Shown here: in pieces, positions 8,190-22,718 of the stretch
Numbering within the stretch: position 1 is the first letter of the stretch
How the letters are laid out: every line of letters begins with the position of its first letter
Assembly: GCA_903880095.1 (NCBI GenBank)
Contig: CAIRNX010000001.1
Location: 62,001 to 126,000, forward strand
Origin: an uncultured Micrococcales bacterium
GTDB taxonomy: Bacteria; Actinomycetota; Actinomycetes; Actinomycetales; Microbacteriaceae
DNA: 64,000 bases
Reading direction: 5' to 3'
Position numbers and translations under genes: made by a program
The notes under the pieces: generated by a model
Told to the model about the DNA's origin: nothing
Databases searched by the model: none
The model's input: the letters and a program-made list of their open reading frames with translations, nothing else

Positions 8190-9383
8190 GTGTCTAATCT
8201 TCCGCCGCTCGACATCGTCATTCCTCCGAAGCCGAATGAAGCGCCGAATGCGCCAGAGACTCCGACTTCTGCGGCGGTTCCGCCTAGCAAAAAGGGCAAG
8301 GCCGGAAAAATCGTTGCCTGGACATGCGGTAGCTGCCTTGGAATCGTTGTCATTGGCATCTTGATCATTTCTGCAATGATCTCCGGATACACAAACAACC
8401 TCAACCAAGAGCCACCGCTTACAGAACAGGACAAAATAAATCAGCCCTTGGCTCGGGCCTACAACGAAGCTTTTACAGCCCAACAGGCAAACCTGCCAGA
8501 TTTCACCAATTGGATGGGTGCTCAGTTCTCCCAGGGAATTCCTTGTGCATCAAACGTCGACATCTGCATCATGGGCAACACTGGTTCAACTGCGGCTACA
8601 CCGAGCCTTTTGAGTCTCGAAGATGCCCCGAGAATCTGCGATGAGGTGTTGGCTGTTGCCCAAACTCTCGGTGCGGACCAAGACGCGGCATTGGGAGAAA
8701 CTTCTTACCAAGCGTTGACAGCAGGAGCTAAAGACCACTGCGTCGCAACCATGAAAGCGAATTCCAGAACAGTTGGCTTTGGTTGGTGGTCGCCGTCGTA
8801 TTTCATGCTTGGCAACACGGCCGAAGGCACACCTTTCGCCATTCAGCTGAACATGTATCGCGAATCACATGGTTCAGGAAACATTGCCAAAGATGGCGAA
8901 TACATTTCTTACGTCATTTCAACATCATCGGTGTTTGATTCACCGCAACCGCTTGACGATCCTGCCTACAAGTCCAACTGGAAAGACGGTCAAACCCAGG
9001 CCATGGCATTCTTGAATGCTCTCGCATACGTTCGCAGAGCGAATTACAGCACAACCTCTGCAAACAACCCGTCGCCATTTTCGCCAGAGACTGCAACTTG
9101 GGCGAAAGAAGATTTTGAAAAGTATTTCAAGGTCGATGCCAAGTTCGAATTCTTCAAGGGTTCAGACGGTCTGGTTCGTTGGTTCCACATCAAGGCGAAG
9201 GATGGCTTCGACGCATGTGTCTCAACTGGGACTGACAAAGAGTTGGTCACCAAAAATGATGACAGCATGGCTTCGCCGCTCGAGTCTGGCCTCACCGGAA
9301 TAACCATGCTTGGTGGCGAAATCACTGGCCCTAATGACCAGCACACTATTGGTTACTTCTACCGCGGTTCTTGTCACGAATAA
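8190..9383 (+). CDS. Unknown single-pass membrane-anchored protein
   Basis: I choose the GTG at 8190, because CTAGGGGG lies just upstream; a longer reading would begin inside the tRNA. The 397-residue product has a Pro-rich cytoplasmic N-terminus (about residues 1-35), one membrane helix around residues 40-62 (CLGIVVIGILIISAMI), and a large extracytoplasmic part with six or more cysteines that may form disulfides. I do not recognise the family; the N-terminal layout resembles DUF4190/DUF4352-type anchored proteins but the domain does not match from memory. Its 3' end overlaps the convergent MFS gene by 38 bases. Confidence 0.6.
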   Translation: MSNLPPLDIVIPPKPNEAPNAPETPTSAAVPPSKKGKAGKIVAWTCGSCLGIVVIGILIISAMISGYTNNLNQEPPLTEQDKINQPLARAYNEAFTAQQANLPDFTNWMGAQFSQGIPCASNVDICIMGNTGSTAATPSLLSLEDAPRICDEVLAVAQTLGADQDAALGETSYQALTAGAKDHCVATMKANSRTVGFGWWSPSYFMLGNTAEGTPFAIQLNMYRESHGSGNIAKDGEYISYVISTSSVFDSPQPLDDPAYKSNWKDGQTQAMAFLNALAYVRRANYSTTSANNPSPFSPETATWAKEDFEKYFKVDAKFEFFKGSDGLVRWFHIKAKDGFDACVSTGTDKELVTKNDDSMASPLESGLTGITMLGGEITGPNDQHTIGYFYRGSCHE

Positions 9384-10605
9384 AAAACATGGATGCGGCT
9401 GCGATTAGGCAAAGAACTGCTGCCGTGATCCAGGCGATGAAGTAGTCACCCTGGGTGTCGCGAATCATGCCGGCGTAGGCGGCCGCGACGGCAGCGCCAA
9501 TCATGTGGCTGGCAAAAACCCATCCGTAGACGACACCTGATTTAGCCAGGCCAAAGTATTTGCGGGTTAGTGCGATGGTTGGGGGAACCGTGGCGATCCA
9601 GTCGAGGCCGTAGAACACGATGAAGAACCAGAGCGGAGGCTCGGCGGTTGGGCCTAGAACGAATGGAACGGTGAACAGGGCGAGACCTCGCAGGCCGTAG
9701 TAGAAAACTAGGAGGAGCTTGGGGTCGACCTTGTCGGTGAGCCAGCCAGAGGCGATGGTGCCGATGAAGTCGAAGATTCCAACCACTGCGAGAAGGCTAG
9801 CTGCCGTGGTGGCTGGCATTCCGTGGTCGTGGGCGGCGGGAATGAAGTGAGCGCCGATGAGTCCGTTGGTCGTCCAACCGCAAACGAAGAATGTTCCTGC
9901 GAGAACCCAGAAGGCTTTGACCTTGAAGGCGTCTCTGAGGGTGCTGAGAGTGGCCTTGACTGTTCTCGGGGCTTGTTCTTCAACGCGCGGTTCGGTGGCT
10001 CCGTAGGGCAACAGGCCGAGGTCCGCCGGTTTCTCTTTGAAGATAAAGAAGAAGATCGGCATGATGGCGACAACGAATACCGTGACAACTAGCGAACCGA
10101 TTTGCCAGCCTGATTGCATGACCAGATTCGTGATTAGGGGGAGAAACAGGAGTTGGCCGGTGGCATAAGCGGCCGAGAAGATTCCGGTGATCAGCCCGCG
10201 ACGGGTTTCGAACCAGCGGTTGGCGACGATGGATGCAAACACAAGGGCGAGAGCGCCAGTCCCTAGACCCACGAACACGCCCCAATACAGCACAAGCTGC
10301 CAGACCTCAGTCATGAAAAGAGTGAGACCGGTGCCGAGACCTATCAGTGTGAGAGCAATCATGACTGTTCGGCGAATCGTGAAGCGCTCCATAAACACGG
10401 CGGCAAAAGGCGCGGTTAGTCCGTAGAAAATCAGGTTTACGGTTACGGCGAGTGAGGTGTCGGTTCGAGTCCAGCCGAAATGCATTTCGAGCGGCATGAA
10501 CAGCGCGCTCGTTGTTGATCTAAAGGCTGCAGCTGCAATGAGCGTGAGAAAAGTTACGCCGGCAATTAGCCAGGCGCGGTGAAGTTTGAAACCCTTAGTC
10601 GGCAC
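9346..10605 (-). CDS. MFS transporter, monocarboxylate/OFA-like
   Basis: A 419-residue major facilitator with 12 predicted membrane segments. Residues 12-100 contain FGWTRTDTSLAVTVNLIFYGLTAPFAAVF, typical of the oxalate:formate antiporter/monocarboxylate branch that carries organic acids. It is the last gene of a seven-gene minus-strand operon (15449 to 9346) encoding homoprotocatechuate-type degradation enzymes, so an aromatic or carboxylic acid intermediate is the likely cargo. The GTG start overlaps the preceding small gene by 11 bases. No separate copy of the cluster's operator is seen in front of it. Confidence 0.85.
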   Translation of the reverse strand: MPTKGFKLHRAWLIAGVTFLTLIAAAAFRSTTSALFMPLEMHFGWTRTDTSLAVTVNLIFYGLTAPFAAVFMERFTIRRTVMIALTLIGLGTGLTLFMTEVWQLVLYWGVFVGLGTGALALVFASIVANRWFETRRGLITGIFSAAYATGQLLFLPLITNLVMQSGWQIGSLVVTVFVVAIMPIFFFIFKEKPADLGLLPYGATEPRVEEQAPRTVKATLSTLRDAFKVKAFWVLAGTFFVCGWTTNGLIGAHFIPAAHDHGMPATTAASLLAVVGIFDFIGTIASGWLTDKVDPKLLLVFYYGLRGLALFTVPFVLGPTAEPPLWFFIVFYGLDWIATVPPTIALTRKYFGLAKSGVVYGWVFASHMIGAAVAAAYAGMIRDTQGDYFIAWITAAVLCLIAAASMFFIRDKNRGRSNQ

Positions 10606-10837
10606 TCAATAATGCTAGTTTGGCTCGATGCAGGCGGGTGACTAATTCGGATTGGCGTATGGCGAGTTCTTGAGACACGTCAGACATTGTGCGCTTCTCA
10701 ACTAGCAGCCCTTGGGCGACTGGGCGCAGAGCGGTTGGAAGCTTAGCCACCTTCGCTCGGAGTTCGGCTTCGGTGAAGTGCGAGACGTCCGGCTCTTGCT
10801 CTTCGAAGGTGACGTCTAGATCATATTCGCTGCTCAT
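10595..10837 (-). CDS. Stand-alone sigma-70 region 4-like DNA-binding protein
   Basis: The ATG at 10837 overlaps the reductase stop (ATGA), giving 80 residues. The first 25 are acidic. The rest, LPTALRPVAQGLLVEKRTMS through VSQELAIRQSELVTRLHRAK, follows the sigma-70 region 4 helix-turn-helix pattern (LPxxxRxV then a recognition helix ending in RLHRAKxAL). There is no region 2, so it cannot be a complete sigma factor. It may be a small regulator that touches promoter -35 elements or RNA polymerase, encoded inside the catabolic operon it might control. The family match is by pattern only. Confidence 0.6.
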   Translation of the reverse strand: MSSEYDLDVTFEEQEPDVSHFTEAELRAKVAKLPTALRPVAQGLLVEKRTMSDVSQELAIRQSELVTRLHRAKLALLSAD

Positions 10838-12009
10838 TTGAGTTCGAATTCCTTTCGGTAGCCCATTACGGTGGTTCGCATTCCGATGCCGCACACACCA
10901 ACCATTTTGCCTTCACGGTAGTAGCCGAAGACGCATTCGCCTTGGATGTCACCGGCAACCAGTTTCACCTCATCGGCAAGCGCGAGCAGGCCGTAGGCGA
11001 GGATGTGGATGTCGTACTGGTCGCTCCAGAACGAAGGAATCGGTGCGAACGGGCCTTGCGTCTGCCCGGCGAAAACTTGGGCGACTCGTTTAGCCGTGTC
11101 GGTGGGGATATTCCAGTGCTCGACTCTGCGGGCTTCGTCGTCGAAGAGAGGGTTAGCGAAGCGGGCAACGTCGCCAATCGCAAAAACGTTTGGCCATGCT
11201 TCGCCGCTGGTTTTCACAGCACGCATGTCGTTGTCGGTGAGCACGCCGTTCGAGAGTTCGAGGTCGTTGCCTTCGAGCCATTCGGTGTTGGTATGTGAGC
11301 CGATTGCTTCAACTAGTACGTCGCAGAGAATGATTTCGCCGCTATCTAGCACAACGCCCTCGACGGCGGTGGTGCCCACGAGATCTGTGACTGAGGTCTT
11401 CATGACGAACTTGACGCCCATAGCTTCGTGGCGGCGCTGAAGCTCTTTAGCGAGCTCAACACCAAGTGGGCGAGTAATGGGGTGGCTGCCGGGGGCAACA
11501 ACGGTTACCTCACAGCCGAGTTTGCGGGCGGTTGCCGCCACCTCGCAACCAATGAAGCCGGCGCCGAGCACTACGACTCTCGCACCTGGTTTGAGGTCTT
11601 TGCGAAGCCCGATTGCGTCGTCTAGGGTTCTGACAGCGTGGCGGCCAATGAGCTCGGCGTTTTGAACTTCAAGGCGCTTGGGTCTGAGCCCGGTGGCAAT
11701 GATCAATGTGCCGTAGGCGTGAGTTTCGCCCTCGGAGTCGGTGACCGTACCGTGCTCGAGGTCGGCGCTCTCAACTCGGGTGCCGAGCACCCAGTTGACG
11801 TCTGCTGTAGATTCTCGCTGCGGAAAAGCGACGGCTTCGTGGCTAACCTCTGCCGCCAAAACTTCTTTCGAGAGCGGTGGGCGGTTGTATGGAGCGTGGT
11901 GCTCCTCACCGATGACCGTGATCGGCCCGGCGTACCCGAAACGTCGAAGCGCCTCGGCGGCACGAAGGCCACCCATCGACGCCCCGACGATTATTACGGG
12001 TTTGGTCAT
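10834..12009 (-). CDS. FAD-dependent ferredoxin reductase
   Basis: 391 residues, starting at the ATG at 12009 that overlaps the ferredoxin stop; an upstream start at 12042 would intrude into that gene. The N-terminal Rossmann motif VIIVGASMGGLRAAEALRR binds FAD, the second dinucleotide fold VVVLGAGFIGCEVAATARK binds NAD(P)H, and ATGLRPKRL and VFAIGDVARF are the usual family motifs. It is the oxygenase-coupled reductase type (as with ThcD or putidaredoxin reductase) that passes electrons from NAD(P)H to a ferredoxin. Lying next to a 3Fe-4S ferredoxin, it most likely serves the P450 encoded at 16848. Confidence 0.92.
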   Translation of the reverse strand: MTKPVIIVGASMGGLRAAEALRRFGYAGPITVIGEEHHAPYNRPPLSKEVLAAEVSHEAVAFPQRESTADVNWVLGTRVESADLEHGTVTDSEGETHAYGTLIIATGLRPKRLEVQNAELIGRHAVRTLDDAIGLRKDLKPGARVVVLGAGFIGCEVAATARKLGCEVTVVAPGSHPITRPLGVELAKELQRRHEAMGVKFVMKTSVTDLVGTTAVEGVVLDSGEIILCDVLVEAIGSHTNTEWLEGNDLELSNGVLTDNDMRAVKTSGEAWPNVFAIGDVARFANPLFDDEARRVEHWNIPTDTAKRVAQVFAGQTQGPFAPIPSFWSDQYDIHILAYGLLALADEVKLVAGDIQGECVFGYYREGKMVGVCGIGMRTTVMGYRKEFELK

Positions 12010-12203
12010 TACTTGACGATGAAGATTGCCTGCATTGGGCAAACGTCAATCGCTGCCTCAACGTTGGCTAGCTCCGAGTCGTCTGCCTCGGCCGTGTATT
12101 CGAGCTTGTCGTCTGCGTTCAGACGAAAAATGTCTGGCGCTTCAAACACGCACTGACCGTAGTGCTGGCACTTGGTCATGTCGACTTCGATCTTGATTGT
12201 CAT
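12009..12203 (-). CDS. [3Fe-4S]-type ferredoxin
   Basis: A 64-residue single-cluster ferredoxin. The ligands are Cys12, Cys18 and Cys55 (CQHYGQC then CP). The position that would hold the fourth ligand is Tyr15, which indicates a 3Fe-4S rather than a 4Fe-4S cluster. Such ferredoxins are the usual electron donors of actinobacterial cytochromes P450. Its start overlaps the preceding stop by one base and its stop overlaps the reductase start, so ferredoxin and reductase are made together. Confidence 0.93.
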   Translation of the reverse strand: MTIKIEVDMTKCQHYGQCVFEAPDIFRLNADDKLEYTAEADDSELANVEAAIDVCPMQAIFIVK

Positions 12204-13078
12204 TATTTTTCCTCCACGGTAGATGGGTAAAGGTCTTTTGATGGGGTGCGAATGCCACGGAACTCCCAGTCGCCACCCATGGCGGTTGAGACAACCTCTT
12301 CGCTTTCGGTTGGCTGAGCGCCAACGTCGGTGCGAATCGGGGTTGGGCCTTCGACGATGTGGTTGGTGAGGCGTCCGAGGCCTTCGACCTCAACCTCGAC
12401 AATGTCGCCTGGCTGAACCGGGCGACTGAACGCTGGCGTGCCAGAGAACAGCATGTCGCCAGGCACCAACGTGATGGTGCGAGCGATGTCGGCAACCAGG
12501 TAGTGCATGTCCCACTCCATGTTGTCGGTGTTGTCTTCTTGTTTGACTTCGCCGTTCACGTAGGTGCGAATCATCTTGTTTCTGAAGTCCCAGTCGGTGA
12601 CGAGCCCAGGGCCAACAGGGGCCAAGGTGTCTGAGCCCTTGACGCGCAGCATCGAGCCGGCGTCTGTGTCTCTGAAGTCGTGTAGGCCGTAGTCGTTGCC
12701 AACCGTATAACCCGCGATGTAGTCGCCGGCTTCTTCTGGCGAAATGTTGCGAGCGGTCTTGCCGATCACGATGACGATTTCACCCTCGTAGTTGAGCCAC
12801 TTGCAGCCGGCCGGGCGCACAACAGCACCCTTGTGGGTGTTTAGCGCGGTGATTGGCTTGTGAAAGTAGGTTGGGGCGCTCGGGAGCTTGGTCATGAACT
12901 CTTGGGTGCGGCTGTCGTAGTTCAGGTGCACAGCGATGATTTTGGTTGGCTCACTTGGTGCTAGGTGCACGGCGTCTTCGATCGCGGTGATACGTCCGTC
13001 TGGGGCAATCAGGTTTTCACCCTGGCGCAAAACCTGCACCGGGTAGCCATCAAGCAGAATTCTTCGATACTCAGTCAC
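12203..13078 (-). CDS. FAH-family hydrolase, HpaG-like isomerase/decarboxylase
   Basis: A 291-residue fumarylacetoacetate-hydrolase-fold protein with the metal ligands Glu98, Glu100 (YEGEI) and Asp129 (GNDYG), and the C-terminal GDMLFSGTPAF and PGDIVEVEVEGLGRLTN motifs. Next to HpaD- and HpaE-like genes it most likely acts on the 5-carboxymethyl-2-hydroxymuconate product. E. coli HpaG carries two such domains (isomerase and decarboxylase) in one chain of over 400 residues; this one has a single domain, so one of the two activities may be supplied elsewhere. The GTG start overlaps the dioxygenase stop by eight bases. Confidence 0.85.
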   Translation of the reverse strand: MTEYRRILLDGYPVQVLRQGENLIAPDGRITAIEDAVHLAPSEPTKIIAVHLNYDSRTQEFMTKLPSAPTYFHKPITALNTHKGAVVRPAGCKWLNYEGEIVIVIGKTARNISPEEAGDYIAGYTVGNDYGLHDFRDTDAGSMLRVKGSDTLAPVGPGLVTDWDFRNKMIRTYVNGEVKQEDNTDNMEWDMHYLVADIARTITLVPGDMLFSGTPAFSRPVQPGDIVEVEVEGLGRLTNHIVEGPTPIRTDVGAQPTESEEVVSTAMGGDWEFRGIRTPSKDLYPSTVEEK

Positions 13079-13982
13079 GAGAGAGAGTCACGTCCTTAGG
13101 TTGTGGGAATCCACCCTCCGGCTTGTCGAACCAGATGTGAACCTGGCCGGTGCCGATCGAGTTTTCGTATTCAGAGTACAAGCGGCCAACCGAGGTGTTC
13201 GCCTCTTCGCCGAGTGCACCAGCCATGGCTAGGTAGTGGAAGAACCCGGCTTCTGGCTTGTATTTCTTGAAGTTGTCGAAGTCGTCTAAGACGGCCTTGT
13301 GGTTGCCTTCAGCGAACCAAGACATGACCTTCTTGTCGTACTCGTAGGCCTCAGGTGAATAAATGTGCTTCGGGTCGCTGGCTTCGTGCTTGCGAAGGTC
13401 GCGTAACTTGTGGAACGTGTGGCTTAGGGCGCCAGAAGCCAGTAGCAGCACCTTGCTGTCGCTGTCGCGAATTGCTTCGCCAAGAGCACGACCGGCTCGA
13501 ATGAAGTCTTCTGGGGTGCCGGTCTGGCAAACCGACATCGAGATCCACTTCTTGTCGTCGAGCCCACGGCCTAGGTAGTGCCAAAGGTTCACGGTCGCGT
13601 AGAAGATTGGCAAGTGTGGGTCGGCAATCGGGGTGATCCACGTGCCGTTCTTTTCGTCGTACTTGCTCAAAGAGTTTGCCAACTCAGGGTTGCCCTTCAT
13701 GGCGTAAGGAATCTGGCTCATGCCGCGAGGAAGCTCCTCTGAGGTGAACAGGCCAGAGCGTTCGGCAGCCGAGGTGATTACGAACTCAACCGTGGTTGCC
13801 CAGTGCGAGTCGAGAACCACTACTGTGTCGTAGTCGAGGGTTTCGAATACGTCTTTGCGAAGCTGCTTGAGACCGGGGACGAGGCTGAGTTCTTTGCCGT
13901 CGTTGAGGTCTTTGCGAACCGCTTCAGGCAGCATGATCGTTGGCACATGGGCCAGGATCGCTGCACCTACTACTTCACCCAT
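13071..13982 (-). CDS. hpaD: 3,4-dihydroxyphenylacetate 2,3-dioxygenase, LigB type
   Basis: A 303-residue class III extradiol dioxygenase. The N-terminal HVPTIML with His12, the DSHW with His60, and the SGALSH segment match the LigB-fold metal site and acid-base His. The stretch ELPRGMSQIPYAMKGNPEL and the C-terminal SIGTGQVHIWF closely follow enterobacterial HpaD. It cleaves homoprotocatechuate next to the hydroxyls to 5-carboxymethyl-2-hydroxymuconate semialdehyde. It follows the aldehyde dehydrogenase gene after three bases. Aminophenol dioxygenases share the fold, but the local similarity favours HpaD. Confidence 0.87.
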   Translation of the reverse strand: MGEVVGAAILAHVPTIMLPEAVRKDLNDGKELSLVPGLKQLRKDVFETLDYDTVVVLDSHWATTVEFVITSAAERSGLFTSEELPRGMSQIPYAMKGNPELANSLSKYDEKNGTWITPIADPHLPIFYATVNLWHYLGRGLDDKKWISMSVCQTGTPEDFIRAGRALGEAIRDSDSKVLLLASGALSHTFHKLRDLRKHEASDPKHIYSPEAYEYDKKVMSWFAEGNHKAVLDDFDNFKKYKPEAGFFHYLAMAGALGEEANTSVGRLYSEYENSIGTGQVHIWFDKPEGGFPQPKDVTLSRD

Positions 13983-13985
13983 TCG

Positions 13986-15449
13986 TTATTCCTTCCAACC
14001 GGTTGGTGAAACTACTGTGTTCTTTACATCTGCGTAGAAGTCGAAAGACCAGGTGCCGCCTTCGCGGCCGATGCCAGACTTGCGCGACCCGCCAAACGGG
14101 GCCTTCAGGTCGCGAACAAAGAAGCAGTTGACCCAGATGGTGCCGGCCACGAGCTGCTTAGAAACCTTGCTTGCGCGCTCGCGGTTGCCAGAAACGAGTA
14201 TCGCCGCAAGGCCGAACTCGGTTCCGTTCGCCATAGCCACAGCCTCTTCGTCTGACGCAAAGGTTTGCATGCAAAGCACCGGGCCGAAAACCTCGGCGGT
14301 GACGATCTCGCTGCCTGGGGTCGGGTTCTTCACGAGAGTTGGCTTGAAATAGAGGCCGCCGAGCTCTTCATTTGGCTCGCCACCCATGACGAAGTCTTGG
14401 CCTTCTGCCTTCGCGCGGTCAACGAAACCCTTGATGCGATCGAAGTGCACCTGGTGAATCTGCGGGCCGATGTCGGTTGCTTCGTCGCGAGGGTCACCCT
14501 GCTTGATCTGCAGCGCCTTTTCGCGGAACTTTTCGGCGAACGCATCGGCGATGTTTTCGTGAACCAAGATGCGAGTACCAGAGAGGCAAACCTGACCGGC
14601 GTTGTCGTATTGCTCGACGGCGAGAGTGACGGCGAGGTCGAGGTCGGCGTCTTCGAGAACGATGCAAGGCGATTTGCCACCAAGCTCAAACGAGACCGGC
14701 GTGAGGTTTTCGGCTGCCGAGCGGGCGATGACCTTTGCGGTTGGCACCGAGCCAGTGAAAGAGATGCGTGAAAGGTCGGGGTTAGCTACTAGCGCGGCAC
14801 CAACTTCGCGGCCGAAGCCCTGAATCACGTTGAATACGCCGTCAGGCAGGCCGGCCTGCTTGGTGAGGTCGGCGAAGAACGACGCCGAAAGCGGGGTCCA
14901 TTCGGCTGGTTTTAGAACCACCGTGTCACCGGCGGCAAGGGCTGGGCCAATCTTCCAGGTGGCAAGCATGAGTGGCGCATTCCAAGGCGTGATCAGTGCG
15001 GCGACGCCAGATGGGTCCCACGAAATGTTGTTGGTGTGTCCGCGGGTTTCAAATGCCTCGTGGTGCAGTTCATTGATCGCCCAGTCGGCGAAGAAACGCA
15101 TGTTTAGGGCAACGCGTGGCATCACTCCGCGACGATGCGAGCGCAGGAGCGAACCGTTGTCCATGGTTTCGAGCATTGCCAGGGTCTCGATGTTCGCCTC
15201 GACTAGATCGGCGATGCGGTGCAAAATCTCTCCGCGACCCTTTGGGCCAAGTGCTGCCCAGGCCGGAAACGCTGTTTTTGCGGCGGCTACTGCCGCCTCG
15301 GCCTCGGCCTGACCACCGCGAGAAATCTCGCCGAGGAACGTGCCATCGATGGGGGAGGTGTTGGTGAAGGTTTCTACCGAGCCAACGCGCTCGCCGTTAA
15401 TCCAGTGGCGGGTGTCTACCTTTGCGCCAGCAACTTCGATGGTGCTCAT
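13986..15449 (-). CDS. hpaE: 5-carboxymethyl-2-hydroxymuconate semialdehyde dehydrogenase
   Basis: 487 residues from the ATG at 15449, which has AAGGAAC upstream; a start 12 bases earlier is possible. It is an NAD-dependent aldehyde dehydrogenase with the ELGGKSP general-base motif and the nucleophile in GQVCLSGTR. The C-terminal WVNCFFVRDLKAPFGGSR is close to HpaE, the enzyme that oxidises the HpaD product. As first gene of the operon it is followed by hpaD, the FAH protein, ferredoxin, reductase, the sigma-like protein and the MFS carrier. A near-perfect operator copy lies 20 bases upstream. Confidence 0.86.
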   Translation of the reverse strand: MSTIEVAGAKVDTRHWINGERVGSVETFTNTSPIDGTFLGEISRGGQAEAEAAVAAAKTAFPAWAALGPKGRGEILHRIADLVEANIETLAMLETMDNGSLLRSHRRGVMPRVALNMRFFADWAINELHHEAFETRGHTNNISWDPSGVAALITPWNAPLMLATWKIGPALAAGDTVVLKPAEWTPLSASFFADLTKQAGLPDGVFNVIQGFGREVGAALVANPDLSRISFTGSVPTAKVIARSAAENLTPVSFELGGKSPCIVLEDADLDLAVTLAVEQYDNAGQVCLSGTRILVHENIADAFAEKFREKALQIKQGDPRDEATDIGPQIHQVHFDRIKGFVDRAKAEGQDFVMGGEPNEELGGLYFKPTLVKNPTPGSEIVTAEVFGPVLCMQTFASDEEAVAMANGTEFGLAAILVSGNRERASKVSKQLVAGTIWVNCFFVRDLKAPFGGSRKSGIGREGGTWSFDFYADVKNTVVSPTGWKE

Positions 15450-15468
15450 AAGTTCCTTCATATTCCGT

Positions 15469-15490
15469 AATCGTTCGGATACTAATGATT
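15469..15490. promoter_or_regulatory. Catabolic-cluster operator, copy 1
   Basis: A 22-bp imperfect palindrome, AATCGTTC-N6-TAATGATT, matching 14 of 16 arm positions of the perfect copy at 21168. It lies between the divergent hpaE operon and the PuuD-like gene. A further half-site (TAACGATT) is at 15532-15539. Predicted to bind the MarR protein encoded at 16229-16729. Confidence 0.72.
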
Positions 15491-15555: not shown

Positions 15556-16257
15556 ATGACTAGACCTCGCATTGCGATCCTCGGCCGTTTCGCCGAAGGA
15601 ACAACCGTGACGCGCTCTCGCGGAGTGGTTACTGCTCGGGCCCTCGCCGATGCAGTTTGGGCTGCCGGCGGCGACCCTTTAACGTTCTTGCCGGTTGAAG
15701 ATAGCGACTGGAATGAGCGTATGGCCGGCATCGACGGCATCTTGATGCCTGGTGGCGGCGACCTCGACCCATCGCACTATGCGAGCGAGGTGACCACCGA
15801 CGAGATTTATGGCGTGGACGCAGTGCAGGACGCCGTTGATTTTTCTCTAGTGAAGTGGGCGATCGATAATGCGATTCCGCTGCTCGCCGTTTGCCGCGGC
15901 TGCCAGGTCGTAAACGTCGCTCTCGGTGGCACTCTGATTCAGCACATGGAAGACGATCACCGTCACAAGGTTCACTCAGTCAAGATCACCGAGGCAAAGT
16001 CGCTTGGTTTAACCGAAGACCATGTCGAGTCGTCTTGCTATCACCATCAGGCCATCGATCAGCTTGGTCGAGGCTTAGAGGTTGTTGCAACAAGTGGTGA
16101 AGGCGTCATCGAGGCAATCAAGATTCCTTCGAAGGCTTGGGCGTTTGGTGTGCAATGGCACCCAGAAGACAACTTTGCTTCGAACTCCCAGCAGCTCGCT
16201 ATTTTCGAGCGCTTCGTTTCAGAGGCGGCTAGTTTTTCTTCTCAACGCCAACGGTAA
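15556..16257 (+). CDS. PuuD-like gamma-glutamyl hydrolase (class I GATase fold)
   Basis: A 233-residue C26-family enzyme. The nucleophile is Cys113 in AVCRGCQ, and His202 and Glu204 (QWHPED) complete the triad; MPGGGDLDP is the family's N-terminal signature. Relatives hydrolyse gamma-glutamyl-GABA or other gamma-glutamyl amides. The GS-like ligase at 18881 would make such an amide. The ATG follows the shared regulatory region with hpaE, and the 3' end overlaps the convergent marR gene by 29 bases. E. coli PuuD acts in putrescine degradation; the actual amide here is unknown. Confidence 0.85.
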   Translation: MTRPRIAILGRFAEGTTVTRSRGVVTARALADAVWAAGGDPLTFLPVEDSDWNERMAGIDGILMPGGGDLDPSHYASEVTTDEIYGVDAVQDAVDFSLVKWAIDNAIPLLAVCRGCQVVNVALGGTLIQHMEDDHRHKVHSVKITEAKSLGLTEDHVESSCYHHQAIDQLGRGLEVVATSGEGVIEAIKIPSKAWAFGVQWHPEDNFASNSQQLAIFERFVSEAASFSSQRQR

Positions 16258-16729
16258 TTGCGCGAAGTAGGTCGGCAAGCTCTTTTTGCTTTGCCGCCGA
16301 AACAACGCCGGCGACTTCTTTTTCGTTCGCGTTAAATTCTGGGAACAAGGTGTCCATCATTTTGCGACCCTTGTTTGTTAGCGTCACCAAAACGAGGCGA
16401 CCATCGGTTTCGCTCTTCGCGCGAGTAACTAGACCGCGCCCTTCAAGAGTTGTTAGCACGCCGGTGAGTGTTGCCTTTGAGAAGCCGCCCTCGTCGGCAA
16501 TTTGCAGAGTCTCGATTGGCTCCCAGATCCATGAGACCCAAAGCACTACAAAGGCTGTCCAAGAAAGGTCGTGCTGGGCGAGCACCGTGCGCTCTAGGTG
16601 GTTGCGAACAGCGGTTGCCGCGCGGAACAGGTTTGACGTAACGGCCATGGACTGAAAGTCCAAAGTCATGTGCGAAAGTCGCTCGCTTACCTGACGCTCG
16701 GTCTCGGTAAGTGTGTGTGCTCCAGCCAT
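16229..16729 (-). CDS. MarR-family transcriptional regulator
   Basis: 166 residues from the ATG at 16729, which is preceded by AAAGGGGG at the right distance; the longer reading from 16774 has no ribosome site. The winged helix-turn-helix is visible as IADEGGFSKATLTGVLTTLE followed by the wing RAKSETDGRLVLVTLT. Such proteins are dimers that usually repress and are released by an aromatic or acid ligand. It sits in the middle of the catabolic cluster with a palindrome copy just upstream (16769-16790), suggesting autoregulation and control of the other five palindrome-bearing promoters. Confidence 0.88.
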   Translation of the reverse strand: MAGAHTLTETERQVSERLSHMTLDFQSMAVTSNLFRAATAVRNHLERTVLAQHDLSWTAFVVLWVSWIWEPIETLQIADEGGFSKATLTGVLTTLEGRGLVTRAKSETDGRLVLVTLTNKGRKMMDTLFPEFNANEKEVAGVVSAAKQKELADLLRAITVGVEKKN

Positions 16730-16768
16730 AGTGGCCCCCTTTGTTGCTAAATCGTAACCCCCATTGTC

Positions 16769-16790
16769 TTTCATTTAGTCCCGAACGACC
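16769..16790. promoter_or_regulatory. Catabolic-cluster operator, copy 2 (weak left arm)
   Basis: The right arm GAACGACC matches six of eight positions of the consensus arm GAACGATT; the left arm TTTCATTT matches four of eight. It lies 40 bases upstream of the marR start, in the short divergent region shared with the P450 gene. Weaker than the other copies, as would suit autoregulation. Confidence 0.5.
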
Positions 16791-16812: not shown

Positions 16813-16834
16813 AATGATTCGTATCCAAACAATC
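16813..16834. promoter_or_regulatory. Catabolic-cluster operator, copy 3
   Basis: AATGATTC-N6-AAACAATC matches 11 of 16 arm positions of the perfect palindrome. It abuts the TAGGAG ribosome-binding site of the P450 gene, so a bound dimer would block initiation or early elongation. Confidence 0.58.
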
Positions 16835-16847: not shown

Positions 16848-18086
16848 ATGAAGAGCATCAGCTTGGCAGATCTCGACCTATTCGCTAACGGCGCCCCTTG
16901 GGACGTCTTCAAGCAACTGCGCAACGAGTCGCCTATGCACTGGAACGAAGAGGAGTCACCGCAAAGTGGTTTTTACTCGGTAACCCGCTACCACGACATC
17001 GTCAAGGTGCTTCGTGACCCAGACACCTTCACCTCTGAGCGATTCACCAACCTCGAAGAGGTTGACGCCGAGCAAGAAGAAGCACGACGCTCACTCCTCG
17101 AGACCGATGGCACCCGCCACCGCGCGCTTCGACGCATCCTGCAAGGAGAATTCACTCCGCAGGCAGTCGCCAAATACGAGACATTTCTTCGCGGCCTAAC
17201 CGCAACCACGCTCGACAAGGCCTTCGCCAAGGGCACCTTCGATTTCGTCGAAGAGGTCGCAGCAGACTTTCCGATCAACGTCCTGGTCAAGTTGCTCGAT
17301 GTGCCCGCAGAAGATGCGGGCCAGCTAATCGACTGGGGTAACCGCATGGTTGGCTTCGATGACCCTGAGCACGCAGACGTTCTGATTAACAGCCCAGAGA
17401 GCGAGGAGTACCGCCTTGTGCCGTTCAAGTCACCGGCTGCTCTCGAAGTCTTCGAATACGGCGACGCCCTGGCTCGCCAGCGCAAAGGTAAAGACGGCAC
17501 CGACCTGGTCTCGCGACTCGTAAATACCATGCCTAGCGACGGCATCCCGCTAAGCGAACGCGACTTTCACACCAACTTCTTGCTGCTCGTGGTTGCCGGT
17601 AACGAAACCACTCGCCACACCATCAGCCACACCATGCGCAACCTGATTCAGAACCCCGATCAGCTTGCTTACCTGCAAGAGAACCCAGACAAGATCGAGT
17701 GGGCGGTCGAAGAGTTTCTTCGCTACGCGAGCCCGGTTTACCACTTCAGACGCACTGCGACGCGTGATGTCGAATTCAACGGAGTCAACATCAAGGCTGG
17801 TCAAAAGTTGGTTCCTTGGTTTGCTTCGGGCAACCGCGACGAAAATATCTTTGAGAACCCAGACAAGATGGACGTCACCCGCAGCCCAAACGAACACATG
17901 ACTTTCGGTCGTGGTGGCCCACACATGTGCCTTGGCAACGCGCTTGCTCGCATCGAGCTTCGCGTGATGTTCGAAGAACTGATTAGCCGAGTCGACAAGG
18001 TTGAGCAGGTTGGCGAAATCGACTACCTACGCTCAAACTTTGTTCACGGAATCAAGCGATTCCAGGTGAACGTAACTACTCGCTAG
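16848..18086 (+). CDS. Cytochrome P450
   Basis: A 412-residue soluble bacterial P450. The I-helix oxygen-binding motif is AGNETTR at residues 250-256, the K-helix is EEFLRYASPV, and the haem ligand is Cys361 in FGRGGPHMCLG. The AGNETT form recalls the CYP125/CYP142/CYP124 neighbourhood, but the subfamily cannot be fixed by eye. It needs a ferredoxin and a reductase, which are encoded in the divergent hpaE operon at 12203-10834. Likely a hydroxylase or C-N/C-O bond-cleaving enzyme acting on the cluster's substrate. Its 3' end overlaps the convergent amidotransferase gene by four bases. Confidence 0.93.
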   Translation: MKSISLADLDLFANGAPWDVFKQLRNESPMHWNEEESPQSGFYSVTRYHDIVKVLRDPDTFTSERFTNLEEVDAEQEEARRSLLETDGTRHRALRRILQGEFTPQAVAKYETFLRGLTATTLDKAFAKGTFDFVEEVAADFPINVLVKLLDVPAEDAGQLIDWGNRMVGFDDPEHADVLINSPESEEYRLVPFKSPAALEVFEYGDALARQRKGKDGTDLVSRLVNTMPSDGIPLSERDFHTNFLLLVVAGNETTRHTISHTMRNLIQNPDQLAYLQENPDKIEWAVEEFLRYASPVYHFRRTATRDVEFNGVNIKAGQKLVPWFASGNRDENIFENPDKMDVTRSPNEHMTFGRGGPHMCLGNALARIELRVMFEELISRVDKVEQVGEIDYLRSNFVHGIKRFQVNVTTR

Positions 18087-18787
18087 AGTTTTGCGATCTT
18101 GTCGATGAAAGCGTCGACAAGTTTGTAGGTGCGCTCGCGCGCAGCCTCTTCTTCGGCCACGGTTTGCTCAAGCATGATCTCTGGGTCTTGGCCGTCCTCG
18201 AGAACCTTGGCGTCGCCACCCCAGTCGAGCCAGCCTTTTAGGCCGGCGGCGTTGAGCTCTGGGTGAAATTGCACAGCGAGGCAGTTGCCATAAACGAATG
18301 CCTGTGAGGCAACCGGGTTGCGAGCAACCTCGATTCCACCCGGCGGCAATTGCCAACGGTCATAGTGAAACTGAAACCAGGGTCCGTTGCCAACTAGGTC
18401 ATGACGGTCAGACCAGATGTTCGTCCAGCCAATCTCGCCCTTCGGCCCTGGGGCAACCGAACCGCCCATGGCACGAGCAATGAGTTGACCGCCGAAGCAG
18501 ATGCCAAACACCGGCTTGCCGGCTTCAATGGCTGAACGCAACCAGGCGAGCTCGGGGGTTAGCCAATTGCCGATGCAGGCGTCGTCCCATGCTCCCCAAG
18601 GTGCTCCTAGCGGGATCAGAACGTCGTAGTCGTTGAAGTCAGGAAACTTGAATGCAACGTTTGGTTCATCAAAGTTTTCTTTTGTGACAACCAGCACCTC
18701 GGTGGTCTCGAAACCGCGTTCGCGAAAGCGCTCGCCGACCGGCCCCGTGGGTGAAACGTGGTCGTGCTGAATGAACAAAGCCTTCAT
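18083..18787 (-). CDS. Class I glutamine amidotransferase-like hydrolase
   Basis: 234 residues of the GMP-synthase-like GATase fold: nucleophile Cys97 in GICFGGQ, with His175 and Glu177 in VQFHPE. There is no synthase partner domain, so it acts alone, as do the GATase-like hydrolases of aniline-degradation clusters (AtdA2/TdnT type) that cleave gamma-glutamylated amines. It is divergent from the GS-like ligase, with an operator copy between them. It belongs to a different subfamily from the PuuD-like protein at 15556, so the cluster holds two distinct candidate gamma-glutamyl hydrolases. Confidence 0.82.
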   Translation of the reverse strand: MKALFIQHDHVSPTGPVGERFRERGFETTEVLVVTKENFDEPNVAFKFPDFNDYDVLIPLGAPWGAWDDACIGNWLTPELAWLRSAIEAGKPVFGICFGGQLIARAMGGSVAPGPKGEIGWTNIWSDRHDLVGNGPWFQFHYDRWQLPPGGIEVARNPVASQAFVYGNCLAVQFHPELNAAGLKGWLDWGGDAKVLEDGQDPEIMLEQTVAEEEAARERTYKLVDAFIDKIAKL

Positions 18788-18842: not shown

Positions 18843-18864
18843 ATTCGTTTGAACCCTAACGATG
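18843..18864. promoter_or_regulatory. Catabolic-cluster operator, copy 4
   Basis: ATTCGTTT-N6-TAACGATG matches 12 of 16 arm positions. It lies between the divergent amidotransferase (start 18787) and GS-like gene (start 18881), four bases before the AAGGAG ribosome site of the latter. Confidence 0.62.
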
Positions 18865-18880: not shown

Positions 18881-20227
18881 ATGGGAACCGACCTCGTTGC
18901 TCTACGCGAAAAACTAAAGGCCGATGGCATTGACGTGCTGCGCCTGATCTATTCTGACGTGCTCGGAATTACGCGATCTAAAGACCTACTGGTGAGCATG
19001 CTCGACAAGGCCGCCCACAACGGGCCAGCCTTCTGTCAGGGCGTTTGGGTAACCACCACCCGCGGCGACGTTCTCGAAGCAAACAACATCGCTTCAGACG
19101 GCCTTCAAGACCTCGTTTCTAAACTTGACCCTGAGACAATCACTCCAATGCCTTGGGAGCCTGGCGTTGCCTTTGTAATCGCCGACGCCTTCAACCCAGA
19201 CAAGACCGACAACCTGATGTCGCCACGCTCGGTGCTCAAAAAGATCATCGGTGAATACAACAAACTCGGCCTCCAGCCGATCGTCGGCCCAGAGCTCGAG
19301 TTCTACATTGCCGATCGCACCGAAGGTGGCGGCTACAAACGCGCACATGAGAAGAAAGGCTTCGTTTACACCACCGGCGCCGCCGTTGACCCTCACGGCA
19401 ACTTCCTCTACCTGTTGCGCATGCTCGACCAGATGAACATCAATGTGTTCGCCGGCAACGCCGAATTCAGCCCTTCGCAATACGAAATCAACCTCTACCA
19501 CTCAGAGGCCTTGGACGCCGCCGACCGCACCTTCTTGTTCAAGACCGCCATCAAAGACGTCATAACCCGTCGTGGCCAGCACGCAACCTTCTTGGGTAAG
19601 CCCTGGAGCGACGAGGGCGGTTCGGGCTTCCACCTGCACTTCTCGGTCACCGACCTTGCCGGCAAAAACCAAATGTTTGATGGCGAAGAGCTGAGTGAAA
19701 TCGCTCGCAAGATGATTGCCGGCCTAACTCATAACGCGATGGCGCTAACCGCCTTCACCAACCCAACGGTCAACGCCTTTAAGCGCCTTGGCCCAGACAC
19801 CCTCGCTCCTTACCGTGCCAACTGGGGTTACGACAACCGTTCAACCATGGTTCGAATCCCGCCAGAGCGTGGGCAGGGCACGCGCCTTGAGGTTCGCGTT
19901 GGTGATGGCGCTGCGAACCCATACCTAGTCATCGCAGGCATCCTCGCAGCTGCCCTGGATGGCATCAAGCGCAACCTGGTTTGCCCGCCAAACGCCGAAG
20001 GTATGGCCTACGACAATGAGTCGGCACCCGTCCTGCCGATGACCTTCACGGCTGCACTTGACGCCCTTGAAGCGAACGATGAACTGCGCGAGCAGATGAG
20101 TCAAGAACTTATCAACGTCTTTTTGGTAATGAAGCGCGACGAAATCGTTCGTTACGAAAAGGCTGTGCCAACGCCAACTCGCGATGTCACCCAGTGGGAG
20201 ATCGACGAGTACTTCGAGGCTTACTAA
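18881..20227 (+). CDS. Glutamine-synthetase-family gamma-glutamyl-amine ligase
   Basis: A 448-residue GS-fold protein with the metal and glutamate site residues of the family (GPELEFY, GNAEFSPSQYEINLYHSEAL, SGFHLHFS) and the ATP/glutamate loop NPTVNAFKRLGPDTLAPY. The C-terminus lacks the NLYDLPPEE-type loop that carries the adenylylation tyrosine of true GlnA. That and the location argue for a PuuA/GlnA3/AtdA1-type enzyme that joins glutamate to an amine other than ammonia. It is preceded by AAGGAG and an operator copy. The permease, two hydrolases and the P450 around it suggest an amine-catabolic role; the amine is not known. Confidence 0.85.
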   Translation: MGTDLVALREKLKADGIDVLRLIYSDVLGITRSKDLLVSMLDKAAHNGPAFCQGVWVTTTRGDVLEANNIASDGLQDLVSKLDPETITPMPWEPGVAFVIADAFNPDKTDNLMSPRSVLKKIIGEYNKLGLQPIVGPELEFYIADRTEGGGYKRAHEKKGFVYTTGAAVDPHGNFLYLLRMLDQMNINVFAGNAEFSPSQYEINLYHSEALDAADRTFLFKTAIKDVITRRGQHATFLGKPWSDEGGSGFHLHFSVTDLAGKNQMFDGEELSEIARKMIAGLTHNAMALTAFTNPTVNAFKRLGPDTLAPYRANWGYDNRSTMVRIPPERGQGTRLEVRVGDGAANPYLVIAGILAAALDGIKRNLVCPPNAEGMAYDNESAPVLPMTFTAALDALEANDELREQMSQELINVFLVMKRDEIVRYEKAVPTPTRDVTQWEIDEYFEAY

Positions 20228-21036
20228 ACCGTTGGGTTTGAGCGGTCGGCAACCAGGTTGCCGCCGTTGAAGGTAACGCCGAGTTCACGGTAGTAACCGG
20301 CAAGCACCTTGTTGACGGGCAGAATCGAGTTCAGCTCGTCCCACTGTGAATCGCCAAGGCTTAGTTCTGCATCGCCAACCCAGGTCGCACCTAGGTCGGC
20401 GTCAACGCCACCCATGGTGATTAGTTGGTCTAGCGAGTTGCCAGCACCAGGAGTGATCGAAGGCACCCAGCGCGAGTGAAGCATCTTGTGGCCGTTTACG
20501 AAACCATTGCTCTCTGAAGGCTCACGAAGCGTGACAATCGCCGAGGCGAGTCTGTGGTCGTAAGCCGAGAGCGATGCGCCAAGCTTTGCGCCGTTCTCGA
20601 GCTTGGGTGTTGCCTTGCCATGGTTGAAGACTCGGGTAACGTGCATCGAGCCGAGCTTCTTTGGGTAACCCTGAAACCAGCCACGAGCGATTGCGAAATC
20701 TTTGGTAACCCAGATTGCTACGCAACGGCTGTAGGTGACGCCTTCGTACTTGCAACGAACAACGACAAAGGTTTCGAGGTACTGCGAGCGCATTGGGTCG
20801 AGTAGCTCTGCCCCACCTTCTGAGCATGACTGCCAGTCGGCCCAGATGATCGCGACTGCGCCTGGCTCGTCGTCGGCTAGCTCAAGTTCAGGCGGCAAGA
20901 TCGCGCGAACGTTGGCTGGGTCGGTCAGGTATTCGACAGTCAGCAGCGTGCCCGAGTAGTACCAAGGCATGTTTGGCACAATTGCGCTTTTGCCGCTCGG
21001 GGTCTTTGGGGCTAGGAATCCATTGAGTTCGCTCAT
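20224..21036 (-). CDS. Acetoacetate-decarboxylase-family enzyme
   Basis: 270 residues with the ADC fold pattern. The catalytic pair Lys126-Lys127 in GYPKKLG corresponds to the Schiff-base lysine and its neighbour in clostridial acetoacetate decarboxylase, so Schiff-base chemistry is probably retained. Members also include aldolase- and dehydratase-like enzymes. In this cluster it could supply a decarboxylase or lyase step missing because the FAH protein has only one domain; that is speculation. It overlaps the end of the convergent GS-like gene by four bases and has its own operator copy upstream. Confidence 0.8.
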   Translation of the reverse strand: MSELNGFLAPKTPSGKSAIVPNMPWYYSGTLLTVEYLTDPANVRAILPPELELADDEPGAVAIIWADWQSCSEGGAELLDPMRSQYLETFVVVRCKYEGVTYSRCVAIWVTKDFAIARGWFQGYPKKLGSMHVTRVFNHGKATPKLENGAKLGASLSAYDHRLASAIVTLREPSESNGFVNGHKMLHSRWVPSITPGAGNSLDQLITMGGVDADLGATWVGDAELSLGDSQWDELNSILPVNKVLAGYYRELGVTFNGGNLVADRSNPTV

Positions 21037-21051: not shown

Positions 21052-21073
21052 AATCATTCGCTTCCGAACAAAT
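21052..21073. promoter_or_regulatory. Catabolic-cluster operator, copy 5
   Basis: AATCATTC-N6-GAACAAAT matches 13 of 16 arm positions. It is 15 bases upstream of the ADC-family gene start on the minus strand. An additional TAACGATT half-site lies at 21092-21099. Confidence 0.68.
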
Positions 21074-21167
21074 AACGGCAAACCCCCTTTATAACGATTC
21101 GGAAAAGCCTTTCTAAAACCGCCTTATGAACTTGACCGCGCTCGCCGCACACGCCACGCTTAGAACC

Positions 21168-21189
21168 AATCGTTCATACCCGAACGATT
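21168..21189. promoter_or_regulatory. Catabolic-cluster operator, copy 6 (perfect palindrome)
   Basis: AATCGTTC-ATACCC-GAACGATT: both eight-base arms are perfectly complementary. It is 26 bases before the permease start and 10 bases before its GAGGAG ribosome site. This copy defines the consensus used for the others. Confidence 0.8.
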
Positions 21190-21215
21190 TCTAACTCAAT
21201 GAGGAGATATCCCTT

Positions 21216-22718
21216 ATGTCTAATAGCTCAACTGACACTGGCCTTCGAAAGGGGCGCCTCGGTGTCGTAGGCATCGTGTTCTTCGTGGTTGCAGCAGCTG
21301 CGCCACTACTAGGTATGACCGGTGCTGTGCCGGTAGCAATGCTTCTCGGCAACCAAGCCGGAACCCCAGGCACCTACCTCGCCGTTGGTCTGATCCTTCT
21401 AGTCTTCTCAGTCGGTTACGCCGCCATGAGCCAGAAGGTAACCAACACCGGAGCGTTCTTTGCATACGTGGGTAAGGGTCTCGGAAAGCATGCCGGTGTC
21501 GCATCGGCCTTTGCTTCGCTGGTTGGCTACATCACCATTCAGCTAGCAATCTACGGCTTCATCGGTGGAGTGCTCTCCGGCCAGATGCAAGTCAGCGCAG
21601 GTATCGCACTGCCTTGGTACACATGGGCAATCATCGTCTGGGTCCTAGTCACGGCACTCTCACTTCTCAGCGTCGACGTTGGCGCGAAGGTGCTCGGTGT
21701 TCTCATGATCGCAGAGCTTCTCACTCTCGTCATTACCTCTACCGCCGTATTCATGAACCACGGTTCGAACATGAACTTCGGCAACTCATTCGGGTTTGAC
21801 GCAATCTTCGCCGGCGGTTTCGGCGGCGGTGCAGGTATCGCAATTGCCTTCGCTTTCGCATCATTTATCGGCTTCGAAGCAACCGCAATCTATGGCGAAG
21901 AGTCGAAAGACCCTAAGAAAGTTGTTCCAAAGGCAACCTATTGGGCAGTTGGAATCATCACCGTTCTGTTTGCCTTCACCGCATTTGCAATGGCAACCGC
22001 CATGGGTGGCACATCTGAAGGCGTTGGCGGATTCGTCAACACCGCCAGTGATGGCCTCAAGAACCCTGCCGGCGTTATCTTCGGCATCGCCGATGACAAC
22101 CTGGGTGGAACCTGGATGTCGACCATCATGGGTTGGCTCGTTATCTCGAGCTGCTTCGCCGGAATCCTCGCGTTCCAGAATGCAATCTCGCGTTACTTCT
22201 TTGCTCTAGGTCGCGGTGGTGTTCTACCTAAGTCGCTTTCGAAGACCAACAAGTCGGGTGCTCCGGTAAACGGCGTGATCCTCACCTCGATCTTCGCAAT
22301 TGCCGTAATCGCCGTTTTTGCGTTGAACAACTTGGACGGCATCGCCAACCTGTTCACCTGGATGTCGGCCGTGACCGCAGTCGCGATCATGTTCGTTGAG
22401 ATTCTCGTGAGCATCGCGATTGTTGTTTACCTAGGAAAAGACAAGACCGTGAGCGTCTGGAAGTCGACCATTGCGCCGATCGTTGCCGCAATTGGACTCT
22501 CACTCGGTACCTACATGCTGATGAGCCGCTTCAACCTTCTCGGCAGCCTCGCACCGGCAAACGTTGACCCAACCACTCCAGAAGGCGCCTGGCAACTGAC
22601 CGGTTTCGGCTGGTTCCTAGTGCTACTGCCGTTCATTGCGGCAGTTGCTGGTTTGGTTCTCTCGTTGGTAAACAACAAGAACGAAAAGGCTGAGCTTCTA
22701 GAAGACATCCTTTCGTAG
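21216..22718 (+). CDS. APC-superfamily amino acid/amine permease
   Basis: A 500-residue transporter with about 12 membrane helices. The start KGRLGVVGIVFFVVAAAAPLLG is the glycine-rich first helix of the amino acid-polyamine-organocation family, and GFEATAIYGEESKDPKK is the conserved FExxAxxxEE cytoplasmic loop. It probably imports the amine or amino acid that the cluster degrades. GAGGAG precedes the ATG and the perfect operator copy lies just upstream, so it should respond to the same signal as the enzymes. A strong terminator follows, closing the cluster. Confidence 0.88.
   Translation: MSNSSTDTGLRKGRLGVVGIVFFVVAAAAPLLGMTGAVPVAMLLGNQAGTPGTYLAVGLILLVFSVGYAAMSQKVTNTGAFFAYVGKGLGKHAGVASAFASLVGYITIQLAIYGFIGGVLSGQMQVSAGIALPWYTWAIIVWVLVTALSLLSVDVGAKVLGVLMIAELLTLVITSTAVFMNHGSNMNFGNSFGFDAIFAGGFGGGAGIAIAFAFASFIGFEATAIYGEESKDPKKVVPKATYWAVGIITVLFAFTAFAMATAMGGTSEGVGGFVNTASDGLKNPAGVIFGIADDNLGGTWMSTIMGWLVISSCFAGILAFQNAISRYFFALGRGGVLPKSLSKTNKSGAPVNGVILTSIFAIAVIAVFALNNLDGIANLFTWMSAVTAVAIMFVEILVSIAIVVYLGKDKTVSVWKSTIAPIVAAIGLSLGTYMLMSRFNLLGSLAPANVDPTTPEGAWQLTGFGWFLVLLPFIAAVAGLVLSLVNNKNEKAELLEDILS

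Follow-up and report, generated by a model that had tools for sequence, protein, structure and literature searches.

A conserved gene set linking a glutamine synthetase-like ligase and a cytochrome P450 to homoprotocatechuate-type ring-cleavage genes in Microbacteriaceae: a candidate arylethylamine regulon

The window analysed here is the whole stretch of 64,000 nucleotides at positions 62,001 to 126,000 of contig CAIRNX010000001.1 (assembly GCA_903880095.1), from an uncultured Micrococcales bacterium of the Microbacteriaceae. The genome assembly holds 1,435,215 bases on 42 contigs, with a completeness of 92.18%. Fourteen open reading frames (ORFs) lie within positions 9346-22718, where an earlier note had proposed a catabolic system joining gamma-glutamylation, a cytochrome P450 and homoprotocatechuate ring cleavage. 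Annotation was based on Pfam and NCBIfam profile matches and on ORF calls, and solved relatives were identified by sequence. A glutamine synthetase (GS)-like ligase, two amidotransferase-fold hydrolases, an APC-family permease, a P450 with ferredoxin and reductase, and HpaE-, HpaD- and HpaG-like enzymes are all present as that note had listed them; its list left out a gene of the acetoacetate decarboxylase (ADC)/MppR family, a MarR regulator and a small sigma-like ORF.

The left-hand genes are encoded on the minus strand. An MFS carrier (9346-10605) is followed by a small sigma-region-4-like ORF (10595-10837; 80 aa counted from the ATG; PRK11922, 21 bits for a cut-off of 204), which adjoins the ferredoxin reductase gene in many same-genus loci. 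The latter encodes an HcaD/AndAa-like ferredoxin-NAD(P)H reductase (10834-12009; Pyr_redox_2, 9.5e-62) and is next to the gene for a 64-aa ferredoxin (12009-12203), whose C-x5-C motif and distal C-P suggest a [3Fe-4S] type. Then come an FAA-fold enzyme of the HpaG C-terminal type (decarboxylase/isomerase; 12203-13078; TIGR02303, 208 bits, cut-off 276), a LigB-type extradiol dioxygenase resembling HpaD (LigB/HpaD_Fe; 13071-13982; TIGR02298, 126 bits, cut-off 316) and an HpaE-like semialdehyde dehydrogenase (13986-15461; TIGR02299, 507 bits, cut-off 638). All three scores fall under the curated cut-offs, yet the Hpa models are the best matches, and HpaD/E/G-like is therefore the fitting label. 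A homologue of the HpaD-like protein in Streptomyces canus (63% identity) carries the PGAP name 3,4-dihydroxyphenylacetate 2,3-dioxygenase. Ring cleavage of the homoprotocatechuate type is very probable.

The right-hand genes form four divergent pairs, the first of which begins with the HpaE-like gene. Its partner encodes a PuuD-like gamma-glutamyl hydrolase (Peptidase_C26, hereafter C26; 15556-16257, plus strand; 1.7e-44). The second pair consists of an HpaR-like MarR regulator (16229-16774, minus; HpaR, 62.5 bits, cut-off 121) and the cytochrome P450 (16848-18086, plus; p450, 5.6e-27), the third of a class-I glutamine-amidotransferase-fold hydrolase (18083-18787, minus; GATase, 1.1e-10; best PDB match 7d54, 197 bits) and the GS-like putative gamma-glutamyl-amine ligase (18881-20227, plus; Gln-synt_C, 5.3e-87), and the fourth of the ADC-fold enzyme (20224-21036, minus; PF06314, 1.8e-58) and the APC permease (21216-22718, plus; AA_permease, 5.9e-29). 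A terminator-like hairpin follows the permease gene (22735-22762, plus; 12 pairs, 9 of them G-C).

The HpaD-like gene is found in 30 of 67 same-genus genomes (partial matches included), and the gene set is therefore an accessory trait. Among 20 same-genus regions, the P450 gene is seen in 18 and the GS gene in 16, the other contigs stopping earlier. Scanning named genomes with a P450 profile yielded 80 loci; in 32 of them the P450 gene is flanked by 8 kb or more on each side (well-flanked). With identity thresholds of 30-55% set per gene, GS, ADC and MarR genes are present in all 32 of these, HpaD, HpaE and APC in 30, HpaG in 29, ferredoxin reductase and ferredoxin in 28 each, GATase in 26, C26 in 21 and the small sigma-like ORF in 12. 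The MFS gene is absent from all 32 and occurs in one of the 20 same-genus regions, at least four of which (L025, L026, L028, L031) end before its position; it was rejected as a member of the set.

Co-occurrence was followed in two wider samples. In a class sample of 296 genomes, HpaD (E<=1e-30) is found in 21 and the P450 in 25 at E<=1e-100, with 23 reaching E<=1e-170. All 21 HpaD genomes also have the P450, on one contig in 19 and on separate contigs in G400 and G482. In a family sample of 299 genomes, HpaD is found in 32, P450 in 35 and ADC in 32 at E<=1e-20 (30 at E<=1e-150). HpaD and P450 overlap in 31 genomes. G103 has HpaD only, and G077, G268, G312 and G349, all of one genus and 77-89% complete, have the P450 and neither HpaD nor ADC. 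ADC is present in 30 of the 31 genomes with both P450 and HpaD and in none of those four single-genus negatives; conversely, each of the 30 strong-ADC genomes has HpaD, while G103 and G176 have HpaD without ADC. Fisher values are below 1e-29 for the three co-occurrence pairs in this sample, with relatedness ignored.

The set extends beyond the family. Gene order is rearranged in Streptomyces, Embleya and Thermocatellispora, where the GS gene is followed by the P450 gene; in S. canus the first lies directly before the second, with 17 bp between them. The S. canus plasmid (L215) carries the full set together with aminomethyltransferase, purU and folD genes. In another phylum, a plasmid of Novosphingobium sp. 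EMRT-2 (L220) encodes homologues of HpaD (54% identity to the window protein), HpaE (50%), HpaG (75%), ADC (53%), P450 (42%) and GS (34%), as well as a second aldehyde dehydrogenase (ALDH) and a 2Fe-2S ferredoxin; no match to the window's GATase, C26, APC, ferredoxin or reductase was found in this locus.

A palindrome, ATCGTT-N8-AACGAT, was first noticed in the gap between the ADC and APC genes. Allowing at most one mismatch, it has 3 matches in the window, one being the defining site, for 0.10 expected; the figures are 8 for 2.15 expected at two mismatches or fewer, and 33 for 22.9 at three or fewer. A position weight matrix (PWM) was derived from 36 distinct sites of relatives, with the window excluded from training, and its null distribution from 20 first-order Markov sequences of 64 kb. 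At 12 bits or more, the PWM finds 8 sites in the window, all in cluster gaps or before aspA and a succinate-semialdehyde-dehydrogenase (SSADH)-like gene, for 0.5 expected per 64 kb. One null sequence reached 20.6 bits, and the next-best window site (36854) scores 11.5 bits. The perfect operator (21169-21188, 28.3 bits) shares the ADC/APC gap with a weak site (21053-21072, 13.5 bits). Single sites with one mismatch occupy the HpaE/C26 gap (15470-15489, 26.5 bits) and the GATase/GS gap (18844-18863, 24.6 bits), and two weak sites with three mismatches the MarR/P450 gap (16770-16789, 15.2 bits; 16814-16833, 13.8 bits). The PWM ranking thus places the operator in all four divergent gaps, and in many relatives sites fall in the same gaps. 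The MarR protein is likely to bind them.

The remaining two sites lie beyond the hairpin. One (24063-24082, 16.3 bits) precedes the aspartate ammonia-lyase gene aspA (24103-25506, plus; PRK12273, 724 bits, above the cut-off of 510). Of 14 distinct same-genus loci, 13 (all but L052) carry it about 36 bp upstream, at 12.8-18.8 bits; judged from this conserved site, aspA is a member of the regulon. The other, operator-like site (27563-27582, 15.9 bits) precedes the SSADH-like gene (27601-29067, plus; TIGR01780, 554 bits, cut-off 646). It is present in the near-identical L053 and in L046 and was not found in L071 and L074; this gene is perhaps also in the regulon, with less certainty than aspA. 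Regulation therefore reaches past the right-hand bound of the earlier note, to aspA and perhaps to the SSADH-like gene. The presence of an aspartate ammonia-lyase raises the question of nitrogen or C4 balance. Two genes for PBP4-like D-Ala-D-Ala carboxypeptidases (Peptidase_S13; 22783-24063 and 26167-27549) lie among these right-hand genes.

Because of the co-occurrence and the shared operators, the gene set is almost certainly one unit, and a chance neighbourhood was rejected. A split into an amine-nitrogen system and a homoprotocatechuate system, adjacent by chance or through hitch-hiking, would agree with the amine module standing alone in group g12 (L083-L085; P450-positive and HpaD-negative in 4/4 genomes), but it is made very improbable by the presence of the P450 in every one of the 21 HpaD genomes of the class sample (on one contig in 19), by the recurrence of the set in another phylum and by the common operator over both modules. 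The refuting outcome that the earlier note had named, genes not co-conserved in relatives, was thus not observed, and its union of ligase-P450 logic with ring cleavage holds as one conserved, co-regulated unit. No description of this exact gene set was found in open-licence PMC papers, a corpus largely outside the subscription literature.

Several lines of evidence bear on the GS-like protein. Two GS residues, the ammonium-handling D50 and the flap glutamate E327 (numbers mapped to alignment columns by the analyst), are replaced by C and L in the window protein. Among 24 cluster rows, 3 of them duplicates, the first position holds C in 23 and S in 1, and the second L in 22, T in 1 and M in 1. 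By comparison, the GlnA1 references have D in 3 and a gap in 3 at the first position and E in 6/6 at the second, and both residues are kept in 9/9 GlnA2 references. According to the passages available from PMC11335346, ligases for organic amines have lost D50 and E327, and their reaction is reversed by a GAT-like partner (AtdA2/NpaA2). All 24 cluster rows show the residue pattern of the glutamyl organic amide synthetases (GoaS), the group of AtdA1, NpaA1 and PuuA.

The GS tree comprises 60 rows, with the partial rows L188, L189 and L191 dropped; its references include no IpuC and no named GlnA3 or GlnA4. Cluster GS sequences form their own clade, apart from GlnA1 and GlnA2 (together 100/95), glnT, PuuA and an aniline-type Achromobacter protein that, from its gene order, we take to be DcaQ-like. 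The actinobacterial part has a support of 100/99, and Novosphingobium and Ruegeria, sisters at 100/100, join its 24 rows at 91/79. Against these references, one of which is a PuuA on a long branch, both a true glutamine synthetase GlnA and a polyamine ligase were rejected; tree and residues thus agree in separating the protein from the two groups whose membership would have counted against the earlier note. Second GS genes of Nanopelagicales and Aurantimicrobium group apart. In Sagittula a P450 gene also lies beside a GS gene; that GS falls outside the clade, on long branches, and the locus was not used as support. The GS-like protein is with good confidence predicted to be an amine ligase forming a gamma-glutamylamide. 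A ligase for polyamines or ethanolamine (Puu/GlnA4 type), with the aromatic genes serving free 4-hydroxyphenylacetate-type acids, would account for the PuuD-like hydrolase and for the best, weak, NCBIfam match of the permease (ethanolamine permease, 69 bits, cut-off 382). It is highly improbable, because the GS-like protein falls neither with PuuA nor with the puu-like proteins and because of the GS-P450 gene order in Streptomyces.

The best solved relatives of the P450 are CYP125MRCA (354 bits) and then CYP268A2 (240 bits). In a tree of 46 rows, which holds no CYP151 reference and does not place the CYP subfamily, the cluster P450s form a clade of 23 rows (100/99), and the Novosphingobium protein has those of Ruegeria and Tritonibacter together as its sister group (100/100). 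In Ruegeria sp. TM1040 (L217), genes for a GATase, the P450 (39%) and GS (30%) lie beside paaABCD and an ALDH gene, and in Tritonibacter (L221) the same P450, GS, paaA and ALDH genes are found. A P450 that hydroxylates the ring is not needed on the phenylacetate route, so these pairs beside paa genes make us lean towards C-N bond cleavage, to which we give an even chance. A Mesorhizobium pML2037 locus places a P450, a 2Fe-2S protein, an APC carrier and a GS side by side. Inside the cluster, Nanopelagicales-type loci (L098, L101, L102, L104) have an additional set of GS, GATase, P450 and ferredoxin genes, and the P450 of that set groups with the GS-linked P450 of Mesorhizobium (100/99).

Other neighbours of the P450 gene may point to one-carbon chemistry. 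In L152, L154, L157, L166 and L171 it lies beside genes for a VanA-like Rieske oxygenase and a VanB/BenC-like reductase, which suggest O-demethylation or another redox partner for the P450. The aminomethyltransferase, purU and folD genes of S. canus (L215, 1-2354) point to one-carbon release. The P450 might then be a demethylase acting on a methylated substrate (3-methoxytyramine, a homovanillyl-type compound or N-methyl amines) and passing one-carbon units to folate, a proposal that draws on the S. canus genes flanking the set, on a PurU-like family (c30) by 4 loci and on the VanA-like (c23) and reductase (c15) families by the 5 loci above. None of these one-carbon or Rieske genes lies in the window, and the loci that carry them often hold an extra P450 as well, so that the one-carbon genes may serve an add-on; we consider the proposal improbable.

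The ADC-fold enzyme has MppR (4jm3, 166 bits) as its best solved relative, followed by 4zbo/6eej (152 bits). Like MppR and Sbi00515, both aldolase-dehydratases of the ADC superfamily, it has K126, the position of the Schiff-base lysine, together with Q122 and R118, residues that are presumably catalytic. K126 is invariant in 12/12 rows. The enzyme may act as a hydratase-aldolase replacing HpaH and HpaI, a tentative assignment to which we give somewhat less than even odds. In its favour, no protein of the HpaI family PF03328 is over the cut-off in 4 of the 14 genomes tested, and in G124 the cluster HpaG is the sole FAA-fold gene. In the part of PMC7820114 that was available, ADC-family genes are induced during archaeal phenol meta-cleavage and are proposed to encode aldolases.

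The substrate is probably an arylethylamine. HpaB (PF03241) was found in none of the 14 genomes tested, against 4 of 14 control genomes. Because a single oxygenase in the window would have to carry out two reactions and HpaB is missing from all 14 genomes, tyramine, which that note had put forward, is judged less likely than a catechol amine; the aromatic amine itself is kept. The same absence, with the need of HpaD for a catechol, is the basis for a different role of the P450, which would ring-hydroxylate gamma-glutamyl-tyramine; an amidotransferase-fold hydrolase would then release dopamine, and an oxidase or aminotransferase from another part of the genome would remove the amino group. The two hydrolases of the cluster and the second P450s of some loci fit this scheme, but no amine oxidase or aminotransferase is found among the conserved genes (the search did not extend to amine oxidases in other parts of the genomes) and related P450-GS pairs adjoin paa genes. 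We regard it as unlikely. As to an amine source, 19 of 72 distinct loci, belonging to two sub-lineages, have genes for group-II pyridoxal phosphate (PLP) decarboxylases next to the cluster, and the solved relatives of these enzymes include DOPA decarboxylase (7xin) and tyrosine decarboxylases. A close copy (at least 65%) is present in the same-genus genomes G005, G006 and G056.

We infer the substrate and each reaction of the following route from these data. The APC permease would import the amine, which the GS-like ligase would join to glutamate as a gamma-glutamylamide. The P450, with ferredoxin and reductase, would hydroxylate the carbon next to the nitrogen, and the hydroxylated amide would split into arylacetaldehyde and glutamine, storing the amine nitrogen. 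An aldehyde dehydrogenase would convert the arylacetaldehyde to 3,4-dihydroxyphenylacetate. HpaD would then open the ring, HpaE oxidise the semialdehyde and HpaG decarboxylate the product; the ADC-fold enzyme may carry out hydration and retro-aldol cleavage to pyruvate and succinate semialdehyde, and the SSADH-like enzyme is a tentative candidate for the last step. The two amidotransferase-fold hydrolases may undo surplus gamma-glutamylamide, and MarR would repress the whole set through the common palindrome. Taken as a whole, the reading of the set as a single regulon for the breakdown of an arylethylamine, most likely a dopamine-type catechol amine, has in our estimate a probability of about 0.45. 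The observation of the earlier note is confirmed and its interpretation partly supported. A broader version is more doubtful: a route shared by two phyla that would bank amine nitrogen as glutamine through P450 N-dealkylation, with swappable lower modules (hpa here, paa in Ruegeria) and ADC in place of HpaH/HpaI.

Several observations weigh against the proposed route. The paa argument is a single case, since Ruegeria and Tritonibacter belong to the same lineage. In the ADC-fold enzyme, V254 (T in L032) stands at the position of Sbi00515 Y252 and MppR E283, which are presumably catalytic. A protein of the HpaI family PF03328 is over the cut-off in 10 of the 14 genomes (not in G000, the window genome, nor in G020, G046 and G132), and two or more proteins of the FAA family PF01557 are present in 13 of 14, the single copy of G124 (one contig) being the cluster HpaG; these could be HpaI and HpaH. 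G483 (L172) and G595 (L173) carry P450, GS and ADC together and have no HpaD match in the genome; these two cases break a strict dependence of ADC on HpaD, which is kept as a lean only, and because of them the odds of the ADC assignment were lowered. S. lunaelactis pSLUN1 has GS, ADC and HpaD/E/G-like genes and no annotated P450 in 35 kb; it also carries MarR, C26, an ALDH and a PLP enzyme with 28-30% identity to the cluster-side decarboxylases. The best NCBIfam model of these decarboxylases is L-2,4-diaminobutyrate decarboxylase (180-198 bits for a cut-off of 900), so that they may or may not act on aromatic amino acids, and the window genome holds only a 30% homologue. Finally, no arylacetaldehyde dehydrogenase was assigned in the window.

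Parts of this system resemble known pathways. In aniline, chloroaniline and 1-naphthylamine degradation (AtdA, DcaQ, NpaA1), as far as described in the available part of PMC11335346 and at the Achromobacter locus, GS-like gamma-glutamylation with a GATase-fold partner also precedes an oxygenase. The oxygenase there is a Rieske dioxygenase, whereas here it is a P450 with ferredoxin and reductase, and no Rieske gene was found among the 20 listed window proteins by Pfam annotation; moreover, the cluster ligase belongs to another clade and ring cleavage is of the homoprotocatechuate type. The hpa pathway for 4-hydroxyphenylacetate shares HpaE-, HpaD- and HpaG-like enzymes and an HpaR-like regulator. 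It differs in that the present set is without HpaBC, HpaF (no search was aimed at HpaF), HpaH and HpaI, has an ADC-fold enzyme instead, and would be entered by gamma-glutamylation and P450 oxidation. Morpholine, piperidine and azepane clusters (MorABC, PipA, Gulosibacter bioI), in the sections available of PMC9477822, likewise keep P450, ferredoxin, reductase and GS genes together; here, by contrast, the P450 has a CYP125-like best solved relative (CYP151 not compared) and is joined to aromatic ring cleavage. The Puu and GlnA4 ethanolamine pathways share a GS-like ligase, a PuuD-like hydrolase, an APC carrier and an ALDH, but the cluster ligase lies outside the PuuA group and the cluster has no PuuB.

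Among other neighbouring features, a tRNA-Thr(cgt) gene (8051-8126) lies about 1.2 kb to the left of the MFS gene, and an ORF called at 8118 begins inside it, its true start probably being further right. In 16 loci outside Rhodoluna (for example L158:4327-5280), the cluster has as a neighbour a gene for an F420-dependent LLM-class oxidoreductase (TIGR03619 type).

If the proposed route is correct, streamlined freshwater Actinobacteria (1.2-1.6 Mb), together with some Streptomyces and alphaproteobacteria, would use dopamine- or tyramine-like amines, and would do so with no need of amine oxidases and with no free ammonia or hydrogen peroxide. One P450 clade, one GS-like clade and one ADC-fold subfamily would at the same time each be given a function. 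The common operator makes members of the regulon predictable in other genomes.

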